DNA from: Candidatus Faecousia excrementigallinarum
GTDB taxonomy: Bacteria > Bacillota > Clostridia > Oscillospirales > Oscillospiraceae
Reading direction: 5' to 3'
Assembly: GCA_018713285.1 (NCBI GenBank)
Contig: DVFK01000022.1
Span: 1-37,812, forward strand
Length of the DNA: 37,812 nucleotides
The position numbers were made by a program, and so were the translations under genes. Below the pieces are notes generated by a model. The model worked only from the letters and a program-made list of their open reading frames with translations. It searched no databases and was not told where the DNA came from. Of the stretch, positions 21,663-27,731 are shown piece by piece. Position 1 is the first letter of the stretch; each line of letters opens with the position of its first letter.

Positions 21663-22850
21663 ATGGAAGAAAATATTCTCTCATTTCAGGATTTGGGGCT
21701 TTCCCAGCCGACCTTGCAGGCTCTGGAGCGGCGGGGCTATGGCTACCCCACTACCATTCAGCAGGAGGCCATTCCGCCCCTTATGGAGTGGAAGGATGTG
21801 ATTGCCAAGGCTCCTACCGGCACCGGCAAGACCTTCGCCTTCGGTATTCCCATGATTGAGCACATTGACCCGGAGCTGCCGGAGGTCCAGGGGCTGATTC
21901 TGGCTCCCACCCGGGAGCTGGCGATCCAGATCGGGGATGAGCTGCGGGAGCTGCTCACCTTCCACAAGGGCATCCGTGTTGCGGTGCTCTACGGCGGTGC
22001 CGGCATTGTGGGTCAGGCCAAGCAGCTGGAAAAGAAGCCCCAGATTGTGGTGGCTACTCCCGGACGGCTTATGGACCACTACAACCGGAAGAACATCCGG
22101 CTGGACAAAATCCGCACCGTCATTCTGGACGAGGCGGACCGGATGCTGGACCTGGGCTTTTTCAAGGATGTGACCCGGATTATTGAGCGGGTGAAGAACC
22201 GGAAGAATCTGGGGCTGTTCTCCGCCACCATCTCCCAGGAGGTTATGACCGTGTCCTGGATGTATCAGCGGGACGAGGTGGAAATCACCGTGGAGCCCAA
22301 GGAGGAGGACCGGCCGGACATTCAGCAGTTCTCCATTACCGTCACGCCCCTGGAAAAGGCGGAGACCACCCTGCGGCTCATCCGCACCCAGGACTATCAC
22401 CGGGTGATTATTTTCTGCAATACCAAGCATATGTGCCAGCGGCTTTGCGACGAATTCCAGCGGGCTGGAGCCAGCTGCGACTGCATCCACGGGGATATCC
22501 GCCAGAGCCAGCGGGAAAAGACCATGCAGCAGTATCGGGACGGAAAGCTGGAAATCCTCATTGCCACAGATGTGGCCTCCCGGGGCATCGATGTGGAGGA
22601 TGTGGACTGTGTCATCAACTATGATGTGCCTCTGGAGAACGAATATTATGTTCACCGAATCGGCAGAACCGGCCGGGCAAAGAAGAAGGGCGTGGCCTAT
22701 TCCATCATCGGCAATTTTCCGGAGCAGGCCAAGCTGGACGAAATTGCCAAGTACTCTCATTACCAGATTCAGCCCGTGGTACTCTTTGATGACGGTACTC
22801 TGACTCCCCAGGAGGTCAAGGCACCGGTCATCAAGAAGCGGTTCCGTTGA
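21663..22850 (+). CDS. DEAD-box ATP-dependent RNA helicase
   Basis: A 395-aa compact DEAD-box helicase with all core motifs: the Q motif region (FQDLGLSQPTLQALE), motif I APTGTGKT, Ia PTRELAIQ, Ib TPGRLMD, II DEADRMLD, III SATI, V ATDVASRGIDV and VI HRIGRTGRA. It has almost no C-terminal extension beyond the helicase core, so RNA specificity must come from the core or partners. Roles in ribosome assembly or mRNA turnover are typical, but the subfamily cannot be fixed. The ATG at 21663 has an AAAGGAAG site; an upstream ATG at 21570 precedes the predicted promoter and is rejected. Confidence 0.95.
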   Translation: MEENILSFQDLGLSQPTLQALERRGYGYPTTIQQEAIPPLMEWKDVIAKAPTGTGKTFAFGIPMIEHIDPELPEVQGLILAPTRELAIQIGDELRELLTFHKGIRVAVLYGGAGIVGQAKQLEKKPQIVVATPGRLMDHYNRKNIRLDKIRTVILDEADRMLDLGFFKDVTRIIERVKNRKNLGLFSATISQEVMTVSWMYQRDEVEITVEPKEEDRPDIQQFSITVTPLEKAETTLRLIRTQDYHRVIIFCNTKHMCQRLCDEFQRAGASCDCIHGDIRQSQREKTMQQYRDGKLEILIATDVASRGIDVEDVDCVINYDVPLENEYYVHRIGRTGRAKKKGVAYSIIGNFPEQAKLDEIAKYSHYQIQPVVLFDDGTLTPQEVKAPVIKKRFR

Positions 22851-23740
22851 CCCCCCTGGAGGAAGGGTTCCTGCTGCTCACCTGTCAGCTGGGAGACCCA
22901 AACTGCAAGGTACTTACCACGCCCCAGCTGCGAAACCTCTTTCGCAGCATGGAAGGCCTCTCCCTCCCGGCAGAAGCCCGGGAGCTGGAAGAAAAGGATT
23001 TGGGAGCGCTGGGCTGTTCCAAAGAATTAAGCCGCCGGATTCTGGAGCTGCTGAAAAGAACGGAACAGCTCCGGTGGTACTTAAAACAGGCAAAGATTCA
23101 GGGCTGCACCCCCATCACCCGGGTAAGCCAAGGGTATCCCCTGATTCTCCGGAAGCGATTGGGGCTGGAAAGTCCCGGCTGCCTGTGGGCCAAGGGGGAT
23201 GTTTCCCTTCTGGACTCCCCGGCGGCGGCTCTGGTAGGCAGCCGTTCCATTGAAGGGGGAAATCTGGCATTTGCCCAGGAAGTGGGCAGACAGGCAGCCC
23301 GGCAGGGCTACACCCTGGTCTCCGGCAATGCCAAAGGTGCAGACCAGGCGGCGCAGGAAGCCTGTCTGGAAGCCGGGGGACGGGTGATTTCCGTTGTTGC
23401 CGATACCCTGACAGACAAGGAGCACCGGGATAGGCTACTGTACCTGTCTTTGGACAGCTTTGACGCCCCCTTCTCCCCCGCTCGGGCGCTGCATCGGAAT
23501 CGGGTCATCCACGCCCTGGGGCAGCTGACCTTTGTGGCCCAGTGCAGCCAGGGTACCGGCGGCACCTGGGACGGCACCGTAACCAACCTGCGCCAGAGCC
23601 TTTCCCCGGTGTTTTGCTTCCAGGACGGCACTGCCGCCATGGAAGCCCTCCAATCCATGGGCGCCTGGGGCATTTCCCAGGAGGACTTGCAGGATTTTTC
23701 CCGGCTGATTCCGGGACAATGGAATTTTTTACAGGAATAA
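22847..23740 (+). CDS. dprA: DprA/Smf-like DNA-processing protein
   Basis: A 297-aa protein with a Rossmann-like DprA core: ALVGSRSIEGGNLAFAQEVG, LVSGNAKGADQAAQEACLEAGG and HRNRVIHALGQLTFVAQ. DprA binds single-stranded DNA and loads RecA during transformation. This copy is divergent: the usual SG-A-GID-AAH motif reads SGNAKGADQAAQ, the Y-P/SE-P segment is missing, and there is no C-terminal winged helix. It starts with a TTG whose last base pair overlaps the helicase TGA stop (TTGA), a coupled arrangement; it is not next to topA as dprA often is. It may be a DprA-like protein with another role. Confidence 0.75.
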   Translation: MTPLEEGFLLLTCQLGDPNCKVLTTPQLRNLFRSMEGLSLPAEARELEEKDLGALGCSKELSRRILELLKRTEQLRWYLKQAKIQGCTPITRVSQGYPLILRKRLGLESPGCLWAKGDVSLLDSPAAALVGSRSIEGGNLAFAQEVGRQAARQGYTLVSGNAKGADQAAQEACLEAGGRVISVVADTLTDKEHRDRLLYLSLDSFDAPFSPARALHRNRVIHALGQLTFVAQCSQGTGGTWDGTVTNLRQSLSPVFCFQDGTAAMEALQSMGAWGISQEDLQDFSRLIPGQWNFLQE

Positions 23741-23777
23741 CCACAACCCGGATGGACCAAGGCCTAAGGCTTGGCAC

Positions 23778-23843
23778 AAAGGCTCCCTTGCAAAAGGGAG
23801 CTGACAGGTTGTAAGCCGTGGCTGAGGGATTCACGGCAGGCAC
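23778..23843 (+). repeat. Left arm of a dispersed inverted repeat
   Basis: The arm begins AAAGGCTCCC and forms an 8-bp hairpin, GCTCCCTT-GCAA-AAGGGAGC (23782-23801), with a GNRA-type loop. A variable segment follows, then CTGAGGGATTCACGG. The same elements occur inverted at 23921-23939 joined to 25370-25413, where the second arm was split by the IS110 element. Its high structure and intergenic location are typical of dispersed bacterial palindromic repeats. Confidence 0.85.
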
Positions 23844-23858
23844 CCCATAAACGCAAAA

Positions 23859-23910
23859 CCCGATGTGGAACGGCTAATCCAGCCGAAAACCTTTCCACAT
23901 CGGGCTTTTT
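23859..23910 (+). terminator. Rho-independent terminator of the helicase-dprA unit, nested within the repeat
   Basis: A 12-bp stem, CCCGATGTGGAA (23859-23870) with 23893-23904, encloses a small second hairpin CGGCT/AGCCG (23871-23885) and is followed by five Ts. It lies between the two arms of the inverted repeat. Confidence 0.88.
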
Positions 23911-23920
23911 ATACCTTAAA

Positions 23921-23939
23921 GTGCGTACCGTGAATCCCT
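23921..23939 (-). repeat. Inner part of the right repeat arm, left of the IS110 insertion
   Basis: These 19 bases are the reverse complement of 23825-23843 with two mismatches. The arm breaks off after CCCT and resumes at 25370 as CTCAGTCGCC beyond the IS110 element. Confidence 0.85.
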
Positions 23940-23941
23940 TG

Positions 23942-23947
23942 TATAAT
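23942..23947 (+). promoter_or_regulatory. -10 half of the circle-junction promoter (IS110 left end)
   Basis: TATAAT preceded by TG, two bases inside the left end. It lacks a -35 partner in the integrated form but would lie 17 bp from TTGACT of the right end after circularisation. Confidence 0.75.
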
Positions 23948-23953
23948 AAGAGA

Positions 23954-24172
23954 GGCGAAAAAAGTGAATAAGTGGTGTATACTCAAGTAAGCGTTGTGGA
24001 GTGGATTGAATCCCTTACAGCTGCTTGCAGACTGGTTGACTGAGGCTACACCCACAACGTCTTGCTTGAGAGTTAATGAGTTGGATAACGCTTGGACGTT
24101 TGATATCTATCAAGGTTACTACGCAAGGCGAATGTGGAATCACAACGCAAGTCACGAAATGAGGTATGCATC
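23954..24172 (+). ncRNA. Candidate bridge RNA of the IS110 element
   Basis: About 220 bases of structured non-coding sequence between the junction -10 box and the transposase start. A long stem (23982-23999 with 24052-24070; one bulge and one wobble) encloses a loop holding TGAATCCCT (24007-24015), identical to the left target, and GACTGAG (24038-24044), the reverse complement of the right target CTCAGTC. Both guides include the CT core, matching the target-binding loop of characterised IS110 bridge RNAs. A second structured part (about 24079-24130, with TTGATA/TATCAA) is the likely donor-binding loop; AGTTGG (24079-24084) equals the right element end at 25363-25368. The 5' end is inferred from the -10 box and the 3' end is approximate. 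Confidence 0.82.
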
Positions 24173-25354
24173 ATGATCTATGTGGGAATCGACATCGCTT
24201 CGGAAAAGCATGACTGCTGCATTCTGGGGGAACACAACAAAAAATTGGAATCCTTTTCCTTTTCCAACACCAGGGACGGCTTCATATCCCTCCTGGCCGC
24301 CTGCAAGAAATACGCAGAACCGGAACAAACAAAGATCGGGCTGGAAAGCACCGGCATTTACGGCGACAATCTGCGTGATTTTCTCAGGCGTAATGGGTAT
24401 GAAATTCGCACCTTCAATCCCCTGCTCATTAAAAAGAGCATGCAAGCAACCACTCTAAGAAAAACAAAAACAGATAAGTCCGACGCCAGTTTCCTGGCAT
24501 CCTACCTTGCACGGGAGCTTCCAGACCCCGATCCGCAGATATCATACCACATCTCGGAGCTAAAGTCACTAACCAGAGCAAGATTTTCTGTGGTAGGAGC
24601 CTGCTCCAAGGCGAAAACTCAGCTGAAAGCACTGCTTGTGCAGGTATTTCCGGAATTTCACACCGCTTTTTCGGATGTATTTGGCGTAGCTGCCATTGCC
24701 ATCCTGCGGAAATATCCCACGGCAAAGAAGCTCTCTGCTGCCAAGAAGACGGCTGTTGCCAAAATCCTTTCGGAGGCCTCCAGACACCGCCTGGGGGAGG
24801 AGAAGGCTGCCATGCTCATAGATTTGGCGAAGAACTCTGTAGGCTGCCATTCGGAAACCAAGGCGCTGGAAATGCAATACTACCTTGACCAGATAGAATT
24901 GAACACAGCCTATATCCGGCGATATGAGGCGGCCATCCGGGAGATTATGAATGAGATAGATTCTCCCATTACCACCATTCCGGGAATCGGTCTGGTGCTG
25001 GGAGCCATGATTCTGGCGGAGCTGGGGGATGTGACAAGGTTTGCAACCCCGGAGAAAGTCCTGGCCTTTGCCGGCCTTGACCCCAGCATATACCAGTCCG
25101 GCAAGTACACCCCGGCCTCCGGCACCATGGTCAAGCGAGGCTCCCCCCAGCTACGCTGGGCCCTCCTCATGGCCGCCAGAAGCACCATTGTCCACAATCC
25201 CAATATCGCCATCTACTACCAAAAGAAGCTCTCTGAAGGGAAACATTACAACGTGATTTGTTCTCATATTGCCAAGAAATTGGTGAGAATCCTTTATTCC
25301 CTTTTGAAAAAGAATACACCTTATTCACTTTTTTATCCGCAAATTTCTGCTTGA
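24173..25354 (+). CDS. IS110-family transposase (DEDD recombinase)
   Basis: A 393-aa recombinase. The N-terminal RuvC-like domain carries the DEDD set: D7 (GIDIASEKHD), E58 (GLESTGIYG), D101 and D104 (TDKSD). A coiled middle region is followed by the C-terminal Tnp_20 domain, with a helix-hairpin-helix-like TIPGIGLVLGAMI and the likely catalytic S309 in YQSGKY. Spacing agrees well with characterised IS110 recombinases, so the protein looks intact. The ATG at 24173 follows GAGG; the frame extends 13 codons upstream without a ribosome binding site. The enzyme works with the RNA encoded just upstream. Confidence 0.96.
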   Translation: MIYVGIDIASEKHDCCILGEHNKKLESFSFSNTRDGFISLLAACKKYAEPEQTKIGLESTGIYGDNLRDFLRRNGYEIRTFNPLLIKKSMQATTLRKTKTDKSDASFLASYLARELPDPDPQISYHISELKSLTRARFSVVGACSKAKTQLKALLVQVFPEFHTAFSDVFGVAAIAILRKYPTAKKLSAAKKTAVAKILSEASRHRLGEEKAAMLIDLAKNSVGCHSETKALEMQYYLDQIELNTAYIRRYEAAIREIMNEIDSPITTIPGIGLVLGAMILAELGDVTRFATPEKVLAFAGLDPSIYQSGKYTPASGTMVKRGSPQLRWALLMAARSTIVHNPNIAIYYQKKLSEGKHYNVICSHIAKKLVRILYSLLKKNTPYSLFYPQISA

Positions 25355-25356
25355 CT
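25351..25356 (+). promoter_or_regulatory. -35 half of the circle-junction promoter (IS110 right end)
   Basis: TTGACT near the right end, pointing outward. Spacing to the left-end TATAAT in a joined circle is 15 + 2 = 17 bp. Confidence 0.75.
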
Positions 25357-25369
25357 TGTTATAGTTGGT

Positions 25370-25413
25370 CTCAGTCGCCTTCGGCGCCAGCTCCCTTTTG
25401 CAAGGGAGCCTTT
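25370..25413 (-). repeat. Outer part of the right repeat arm, right of the IS110 insertion
   Basis: On the minus strand it reads AAAGGCTCCC..., with the hairpin GCTCCCTT-GCAA-AAGGGAGC (25409-25390) and a second small stem CGCC/GGCG, ending ACTGAG. It continues the arm broken at 23939. The hairpin may also help end transcripts from the gene at 25465. Nothing further was seen between 25414 and 25464. Confidence 0.85.
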
Positions 25414-25464
25414 ACACCCCGGAAACCGTATACAGCACAGCTACATTAGAATTGGATTCAACAC

Positions 25465-26181
25465 TTACCGTTTCTCTATCTGAAAGCAAAAGGGATTGAC
25501 AATATTCTGGGCTCCAAACACCTTCACTGCCATCCTGAACATCGCTTTTGCGTGAATCCGGTCGTGCCAGAGAAAGCGGCGGAGGACTTTGGGAAGTGAC
25601 CATTCCTCTCCATAGCTTCCCGCAATGACTCTGTTTTGGAGAAAATTCGGCATCGCTTCCAGCGCTTCGAACCCCCGCCTGCGGCACGCAAATATATCCC
25701 CATGGTTGTCTGCCGACACCTCTATCTCCCCGAAATAATATGCGTTAACATTCTTTGTATGCTGGTACATCTCCTCTGCGGAGCGGGGAACCTGACCGTA
25801 AAAGGTCTTGCGTTGGGCAATGGCCACCGCGTTTTTGTCGGGAATGGACTGATATAAGGCAAGAAAATCCTTTGCAGACTTCAGCGCAAGCTCTTTCAGC
25901 CTTTCATACGCTTCTGCCGTCAACGGTTCTTTTTCCCTTTGAAAAAGAACATCGGAATCCGCATCTTTGATGTCCAGATTGGAACTTTTTTCCTGGACAA
26001 TGGCGATTTTCATATCGTCGTCAATAGAACCACCGCACCATTTAAGATATAACGCAATTTCCCGGGGCATTTTCCCGACAGCCGTTTTCAAGCTCTCTCC
26101 CCGGGTATATGCGCCGGGGTAATCCACCGCATACAGCAACGTGTCCTTGCCGTTATGTTCCCAAACACAGTTTACGGTCAT
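25465..26181 (-). CDS. Hypothetical protein with HicB-like N-terminus and DinB-like C-terminus
   Basis: A 238-aa protein. Residues about 1-55 resemble a HicB antitoxin-type fold (YAVDYPGAYTRGESLKTAVGKM, echoing the P-G-x-T-x-G-x-T/S-L pattern). The C-terminal part has LRRFLWHDRIHAKAMFRMAV, similar to DinB-superfamily helical proteins in which such His residues bind metal. There is no HicA partner gene nearby, so this is not a classical toxin-antitoxin pair. A GGAG site precedes the ATG. Both domain calls rest on short motifs and should be treated as tentative; the function is unknown. Confidence 0.7.
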   Translation of the reverse strand: MTVNCVWEHNGKDTLLYAVDYPGAYTRGESLKTAVGKMPREIALYLKWCGGSIDDDMKIAIVQEKSSNLDIKDADSDVLFQREKEPLTAEAYERLKELALKSAKDFLALYQSIPDKNAVAIAQRKTFYGQVPRSAEEMYQHTKNVNAYYFGEIEVSADNHGDIFACRRRGFEALEAMPNFLQNRVIAGSYGEEWSLPKVLRRFLWHDRIHAKAMFRMAVKVFGAQNIVNPFCFQIEKR

Positions 26182-26243
26182 ATTCTCGCTCCAATCAAAC
26201 TTTATCTTTAGAAGGGAGAAGTCGGTGGGCTTCTTCCTTTTGA

Positions 26244-27731
26244 TTATTCAAAAGCTTTTGCACAGGCCACGGCTTTTTGCCAGCCGGTGAGGCGGGTTTG
26301 GCGTTCCTCAGGGGAAATCTGGGGGGCAAAGACCCGGTCGCAGCGCCAGTTTTTCTCAATCTCCTCCAGGCTTTCCCAATAGCCGACCCCCAGGCCTGCC
26401 AGGTAGGCAGCGCCCATGGCGGTGGTTTCCACGCAGTGGGGCCGCTGCACCGGAGCGCTGCACAAATCCGCCTGGACCTGCAACAGATAGTTGTTGGCGC
26501 TGGCGCCGCCATCCACCCGCAGTCCCGGGATGGCCATGCCTGCGTCCGCCTCCATGGCCCGGAGCACATCCACCATCTGATAGGCGATGGAATCCAGGGT
26601 GGCACGGATAATATGGTACTTGTTTACCCCCCGGGTCAGTCCCACAATCGCCCCCCGGGCATAGGCATCCCAATGGGGTGCCCCCAGTCCGGTGAAGGCC
26701 GGGACCACATAGCAGCCGTTGGTGGAGTCCACCTTGTTGGCCATATACTCCGAGTCCCCGGCAGACTCCAAAAAGCGCAGCTCGTCCCGGAGCCACTGGA
26801 TGGCAGCTCCGGCCACAAACACGGAGCCTTCCAGGGCGTAATTCACCTTACCGTCAAGGCCCCAGGCGATGGTGGTCACCAGGCCGTTTTGGGAGTCCAT
26901 GGGGGTAGCGCCTGTATTCATCAGTAGGAATGCACCGGTGCCGTAGGTACATTTGCACTGTCCCGGATGGAAGCAGGTCTGGCCAAAGAGGGCTGCCTGC
27001 TGGTCCCCCGCTGCACCGGCAATGGGGATGGAGGCTCCCAGAATCCCCGGATCTGTATGTCCGTAAACAGCGCTGGAGGGCACTGGCTCCGGCAGCATGG
27101 ATTTGGGAATGTCCAGGAGCCGGAGAATCTCCTCGTCCCAGGTGAGGGTATGGATATTGAACAGCATGGTCCGGGAGGCGTTGGTATAGTCCGTCACATG
27201 GACCTTGCCCCCGGTGAGCTTCCAGATGAGCCAGGTCTCCACCGTGCCGAACAGCAGCTCCCCGGCCTGGGCTTGCTCCCGGGCTCCCGGCACATGGTCC
27301 AGAATCCACCGCAGCTTGGTGGCGGAGAAATAGGGGTCCAGCACCAGGCCGGTTTTCTTCCGGAAGAAATCTTCATAGCCCAGCTTTTTCAGCTCCTGGC
27401 AATGGTCTGCCGTCCGGCGGCACTGCCACACGATGGCAGGACACACAGGCCGTCCGGTGAGGCGGTTCCACACAATGGTGGTTTCCCGCTGGTTGGTAAT
27501 ACCGATGGCCGCCACATCCCCGGCGGCGATTCCCCCGTTGCTCAGGGCCATTCTGGCCACCTCTACCTGGGTGGCGTAAATCTCCTCCGGGTCATGCTCC
27601 ACCCAACCCGGCTGGGGGAAATACTGGGTAAATTCCTTCTGGGCCATTGCCACAATTTCCCCATCTTTTCCAAAAAGAATACACCGGTTACTGGTGGTAC
27701 CGGAGTCCAAAGCCATAATATACTTGCCCAT
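26244..27731 (-). CDS. glpK: Glycerol kinase
   Basis: A 495-aa FGGY-family kinase that makes glycerol 3-phosphate. The N-terminal phosphate-binding [43 protein letters not shown], the family signature around FLLMNTG and GLGAPHWD are all present. The His phosphorylated by the PTS in Firmicutes enzymes would lie near [14 protein letters not shown]. An AGGAGG site precedes the ATG. No glpF or glpD lies next to it. Monocistronic with a strong promoter. A 10-bp hairpin with one mismatch (about 26202-26229) follows the stop but has no clear T-run. Confidence 0.97.

Follow-up and report, generated by a model that had tools for sequence, protein, structure and literature searches.

What directs an IS110-type insertion sequence to its place in the genome of a gut bacterium: its recombinase alone, or an RNA encoded by the element itself? 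The question is raised by a stretch of 37,812 nucleotides (the window) on contig DVFK01000022.1 of Candidatus Faecousia excrementigallinarum, a draft genome of 121 contigs (G000), in which the noncoding region preceding a transposase gene contains two short words that correspond to the two flanks of the element. A preliminary description, made from the letters of the window, had claimed that this region is a bridge RNA and that the element appears to be RNA-programmed for a specific genomic repeat. Copies with the same guides, a conserved fold and an empty site in a related genome (G001) support that claim, and on sequence comparison we place at roughly 0.95 the probability that positions 23940-25369 are an IS110-type insertion sequence that encodes, in its left end, a bridge RNA guided to a repeat resembling repetitive extragenic palindromic (REP) sequences. 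The features on which this interpretation depends are the following:

23940..25369, forward strand: IS110-family insertion sequence, between two CT cores, delimited by the empty site in G001
23931..23939, forward strand: left half of the target (LT), TGAATCCCT, with the CT core at 23938-23939, read directly from the flank and from the empty site
25370..25376, forward strand: right half of the target (RT), CTCAGTC, with the second copy of the CT core at 25370-25371, read in the same way
24007..24015, forward strand: left target guide (LTG), TGAATCCCT, equal to the left flank and supported by an own-versus-swapped test
24038..24044, forward strand: right target guide (RTG), GACTGAG, reverse complement of the right flank and supported by the same kind of test

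The limits of the element are provided by G001, which belongs to the same genus. When positions 22400-26900 are used as a query, the matches to 22400-23939 and 25370-26900 (93% and 96% identity) abut in that genome and overlap by the CT only; furthermore, the joined flanks of the window align over 252 bases with zero mismatches, the orthologous locus carrying an uninterrupted TGAATCCCTCAGTC. This arrangement indicates that the element comprises 23940-25369, between two CT dinucleotides, and that TGAATCCCTCAGTC is the unoccupied target. Since the empty site sets the ends independently, they were not picked to suit the guides. A second pair of empty and occupied sites was sought for the Faecousia copy described below and gave no clean result, the matches in G000 being divided among contigs.

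Script-checked coordinates confirm what had been noted on the guides: TGAATCCCT stands both at 24007-24015 and at 23931-23939, GACTGAG at 24038-24044 is the reverse complement of CTCAGTC at 25370-25376, and the CT core is contained in both. Words of only 9 and 7 bases could conceivably match by chance within an IS110 left end, and such matches were counted. The window contains 2343 nine-base words that end in CT. Eight of them are found in the 52-base loop at 24000-24051: six come from the loop, another is the left flank and the last is a chance match (25872), corresponding to approximately 1/2300 per site. Of the 2345 seven-base words that begin with CT, 6 are represented in the loop by their reverse complement, the right flank among them. 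The joint chance for a fixed pair of ends, calculated as our product of the two, is approximately 1e-6, in agreement with the claim that such matches are hard to obtain by accident, and the pattern recurs in relatives in a permutation test (see below). A fortuitous match can thus be regarded as negligible, provided that the guides were parsed correctly.

A guide must also lie where an RNA can present it, and three further features describe the predicted transcript:

23954..24172, forward strand: region of the left end predicted to encode the bridge RNA, from position, fold and covariation; its 5' end is placed from the -10 box
23982..23999, forward strand: 5' arm of the stem that closes the target-binding loop, from folding and covariation
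24052..24070, forward strand: 3' arm of the same stem, from folding and covariation

Energy folding of 23954-24075 yields a z score of -2.44, with 2 of 200 shuffles equally or more stable, and a longer piece, 23976-24160, reaches -1.68 only (10 of 200). RNAalifold, applied to 27 sequences including that of the window, predicts 28 pairs, ten of which have changed on both sides, with 96.6% of cells paired. The closing stem (helix 1) accounts for 15 pairs, five of them changed on both sides, and 95.5% of its cells are paired. On each of five measures the number of pairs surpasses 500 of 500 shuffles, and it also surpasses all six slid versions, a result that may be inflated by the relatedness of the sequences and that involves an alignment that is poor inside the guide loop. 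A conserved fold had been named in the preliminary description as a check, and both the covariation and the energy folding place the two guides inside the loop closed by 23982-23999/24052-24070, as had been suggested.

The left end also carries candidate guides for the element's own ends, and a promoter may form when these ends are joined:

24079..24084, forward strand: left donor guide (LDG), AGTTGG, identical to 25363-25368 in the right end
24108..24114, forward strand: right donor guide (RDG), TATCAAG, with partial complementarity to the left end, CTTGTATA
23942..23947, forward strand: TATAAT, -10 box of a promoter that would arise only in the circular form, seen when the right-end-left-end (RE-LE) junction is joined
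25351..25356, forward strand: TTGACT, -35 box in the right end, overlapping the transposase stop codon, seen when the same junction is joined

The last two bases of the LDG equal those of the donor in 26/26 elements with both parsed, from a total of 27 (AG in 16, AA in 7, GG in 3), and the whole hexamer does so in 24/26; the last five bases of the RDG agree with the donor in 24/27 elements, three of which read ACGAG on both sides. Joining the right and left ends gives, at the level of sequence, TTGACT-17-TATAAT, spanning the core. By analogy with the family, excision of the element as a circle would join the two ends and create this sigma-70-like promoter, from which the bridge RNA would be transcribed before binding the recombinase. 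Within the target loop, pairing would involve TGAATCCCT and the bottom strand on the left side of the core, and GACTGAG and the top strand on the right side; the donor loop would pair with the element's own joined ends, allowing the recombinase to exchange strands at CT.

That recombinase occupies most of the element:

24173..25354, forward strand: transposase/recombinase, 393 residues from ATG, with DEDD_Tnp_IS110 and Transposase_20 domains, from Pfam and Protein Data Bank (PDB) matches

The start at ATG 24173 is our choice, the frame being open from GTG 24134; the noncoding region 23940-24172 thus precedes the gene in the left end, and only 15 bases separate the stop codon (ending at 25354) from the right core (25370). 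The two Pfam domains are recognized with E values of 2.6e-37 (PF01548) and 7.1e-26 (PF02371), and in the PDB sequence set the protein matches IS621 (8wt6) with 84 bits and ISCro4 (9t56) with 75 bits. Residues D7, E58, D101, D104 and S309-G310 are invariant across 25 aligned sequences, including that of the window. The catalytic residues of IS621 are given as D11, E60, D102, D105 and S241-G242 (PMC11208158). The residues of the window protein align with these in the same order and are taken here to correspond to them, by our own reading of an alignment in which the PDB chain numbering runs two ahead.

If the element is guided, copies bearing the same guides should be found in the same repeat, and this had been the second check proposed in the preliminary description. 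The right end occurs four times in G000, in the window and at the ends of three further contigs (C69, C104 and C58), and the left end twice, in the window and on C33. A copy whose transposase is 99% identical is present in Candidatus Faecousia excrementipullorum (L047, DVGG01000021.1), and was counted together with the copy in genome G060 as one insertion. The right flank CTCAGTC is found in 5/5 distinct insertions (four in G000, one in G060), and the left flanks, TGAATCCCT, TGAATCCCT and GTAATCCCT, lie in the repeat in 3/3 cases, GTAATCCCT retaining 7 of the 9 guide bases; same-guide copies therefore do occupy the same repeat. Near-identical elements were detected only in G000 and G060 in a survey of 136 genomes in which two candidates were scored per genome and pieces at contig ends could be missed, and an exact scan of viral contigs with the guide loop gave no match.

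These copies also bear on the possibility that the element, while guided, is represented in the window by an inactive copy, the fossil of a past targeting event. The weak fold of the donor loop in isolation (see below) would be compatible with such decay, but the 393-residue frame is open and includes the catalytic residues, a 99% identical copy resides at a different site in another genome, and further copies are collapsed at contig ends. The latter two observations suggest recent movement, and an inactive copy is considered rather unlikely.

The landing site itself belongs to a repeat of the host, the remainder of which is as follows:

25377..25413, forward strand: rest of the targeted hairpin repeat, from repeat matches and 26 distinct copies

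The 14-base TGAATCCCTCAGTC is intact in 32 copies in G000, where the reversed control gives 0, and occurs in 3/136 genomes of the genus (80 copies in G060, 32 in G000 and 14 in G001). A second hairpin, GCTCCC...GGGAGC, follows at most 66 bases after the site in 24/26 distinct copies with enough flank, and between the two lies a variable hairpin, with arms such as ACGCC...GGCGT, ACGGC...GCCGT or AAAAATC...GATTTTT. We describe this target, from its sequence, as a REP-like structured repeat; no named family was found for it. In the repeat loci L049-L078 the hairpin beside the site is wholly different between copies, with compensating changes, and this replacement of one hairpin by another suggests that the repeat is itself probably a structured element of RNA or DNA. 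An inverted second copy of the repeat family, unoccupied, lies just to the left of the insertion at window positions 23772-23840, and its GAATCCCTCAGCC differs from the target by one base, in the right half.

The distribution of element and repeat invites the tentative idea, which we consider possible but doubtful, that selection has kept the guides in step with a hairpin repeat that is lineage-specific and expanding, element and repeat forming a guide-landing-pad pair confined to one small clade. Near-identical copies of the element are found in the two genomes richest in TGAATCCCTCAGTC (G060 and G000), and a relative from another genus, 82% identical, has the same right guide and a changed left guide, its genome being devoid of AATCCCTCAGTC. 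Shared ancestry of the two carrier genomes may be the whole reason for this co-occurrence.

The correspondence between guides and flanks extends to more distant elements. A search of 400 genomes of the host family gave matches in 118, and the relatives used, which are part of those existing, were loci among the matches listed together with 19 chosen stretches. Loci in which the match started after transposase residue 20 were skipped, leaving 67, and the removal of 8 below 38% identity left 59 rows, representing 40 'unique' insertions, among which L078 duplicates L006. Parsing gave no left guide for L109, L114, L116, L117 and L135 (L109 and L116 having a CA core), and L112 has no left flank; the right flank is missing in L024, L097, L100 and L112 (by contig end or pattern miss), is too short in L022, and was probably caught at the wrong place in L098, which was kept in. 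With one representative per guide pair, 28 pairs were obtained, window included, 27 with a left and 23 with a right flank; both guides of L048 had been manually extended by one base beforehand. The LTG matched its own flank at 7.15 of 9 positions on average, versus 4.93 for the flanks of others (n=27), and the RTG at 6.22 of 8 versus 4.42 (n=23), values reached by 0/100,000 permutations in both cases, the permutations ignoring descent among the relatives. The test was repeated without L103, which is flanked on the left by a duplicate of its own left end, and L092, which may not be independent of L006, giving 7.08 versus 4.88 on the left (n=25) and 6.10 versus 4.44 on the right (n=21); the further removal of the window and the 82% relative gave 7.00 versus 5.01 (n=23) and 6.05 versus 4.77 (n=19), again with 0/100,000 permutations.

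These data are difficult to reconcile with a scenario in which the match is a mere footprint, the loop having captured target sequence or the element having hitch-hiked in an expanding repeat, while the protein alone picks the site. It is true that all copies found lie in one repeat family, so that duplication of the repeat could in principle have spread them, and that relatives tolerate mismatched sites. Nevertheless, the flanks of the copies differ beyond the short site and the window locus is empty in G001, so that the copies look like separate insertions; moreover, both guides track their own flanks in 27 elements, at positions used by the published bridge RNA. A footprint is accordingly judged very improbable. 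The chance and repeat-duplication readings were both set aside on the permutation tests, the loop-word counts and the empty site in G001.

Several observations weigh against RNA guidance as formulated here. The donor-loop half of the predicted RNA, folded alone, is no more stable than shuffles (z +1.19, 191/200), no 5' stem-loop is predicted in 23954-23981, where the 5' end was placed by inference from the -10 box, and a search of the window against Rfam at gathering scores finds nothing. The window is, in addition, one of the three RDG exceptions, with a match of 4 bases only (CAAG). Among the relatives, the own flank ranks first or second in only 16/27 left and 9/23 right guides (ties counting against), and it ranks 14th or lower for 5/27 left guides (L024, L098, L099, L102 and L134) and 10th or lower for 6/23 right guides (L023, L048, L087, L102, L115 and L131). 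Four copies with identical guides in genome G231 have four different flanks, with left-guide matches of 4, 8, 8 and 9 of 11, and the 82% relative (L096) occupies a site mismatching both guides (7/11 and 6/9). The excess of own over swapped matches, taken together with the poorly ranked own flanks, indicates from these comparisons that guidance in the relatives is real but tolerant. All four G231 flanks (C6 and C7, L123-L126) have a left side reading TCCT and a right side reading CTTTCT, and this common part of otherwise different flanks makes the core-adjacent bases seem the most important.

How does this element compare with known systems? IS621 of Escherichia coli, whose host we take to belong to another phylum than the gut genus of the window, was reportedly found in REP repeats in a report of 2003. 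The bridge-RNA IS110 family was published in 2024 (PMC11208160, PMC11208158), and the bridge-RNA mechanism, guide layout, CT core and RE-LE junction promoter are set out for IS621 in one of these papers (PMC11208160). The two elements are alike in having a DEDD + Transposase_20 recombinase, a bridge RNA in the left end and an RE-LE junction promoter (both predicted for the window), an LTG equal to the top strand and an RTG pairing with it, the CT core in both guides and a target in a palindromic genomic repeat, in line with the target-loop layout that had been proposed for the window. They differ in that the protein match is weak (84 bits, divided between the N-terminal and C-terminal domains), that the window element has other guides and a different, hairpin-containing repeat, that the RTG match covers 7 bases in the window versus 4 in IS621, and that the 5' stem-loop is not predicted in the window. 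ISCro4 (9t56) is of the same protein family and domain order, with a weaker match (75 bits).

RNA guidance was independently reported for the IS1111 group (seekRNA), which shares the transposase family and RNA-guided target choice (PMC11187229); in contrast, the RNA region of the window lies upstream of the transposase, with the LTG first, and not in the downstream noncoding region that characterizes that group. The insertion of IS110 elements in REP repeats was documented in 2006, with IS621 cited as the experimental case, and the accessible part of that account describes repeated insertion of ISPpu9, ISPpu10, ISPa11, ISRm19 and further members of the IS110 family in extragenic palindromic repeats, the hosts being Pseudomonas, Sinorhizobium and the like, and discusses site recognition by the transposase, not by RNA (PMC1525189). 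The element was not found described in limited literature searches on Faecousia insertion sequences and on IS110 elements generally, and similar searches on this genus and on the repeats of such gut bacteria brought nothing useful.

The architecture is that of the already published IS110 bridge RNA, and represents a good worked example that holds no surprise for a specialist. Its value lies in a fully bounded natural guide-target pair, with an occupied site, an empty site, many intact sites and donor guides, associated with a bridge-RNA recombinase that is distant from IS621 and stems from a gut genus represented here by draft genomes. Programmable recombination tools might be developed from elements of this kind, which also provide a natural series in which to follow the drift of guides with host repeats.

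A number of minor observations concern individual relatives. L109 and L116 (genomes G338 and G407) form a related subgroup in which the core is CA, not CT, and the right guide of L109, TTTTGAGGTG, matches its right flank over nine bases. In L103 (G429:C19), the left end, upstream of the transposase, is tandemly duplicated through its own left guide: at the junction (G429:C19:35393-35422), ...ATAAGCCCCCT runs straight into another left end, as if the element had used its own guide DNA as left half-target, or replication had slipped. A search for frequent recombination with own left-guide DNA, with one pattern in the 400 genomes, returned a single match, L103 itself. Finally, a relative of approximately 43% identity is present in both G000 (C104, L006) and G060 (C56, L092), at a palindromic site with TTGTTCCCCCC arms; read by eye, the insertions in G000 and G060 apparently lie in opposite arms or are oppositely oriented, and the frame of the G000 copy is interrupted by a TGA.
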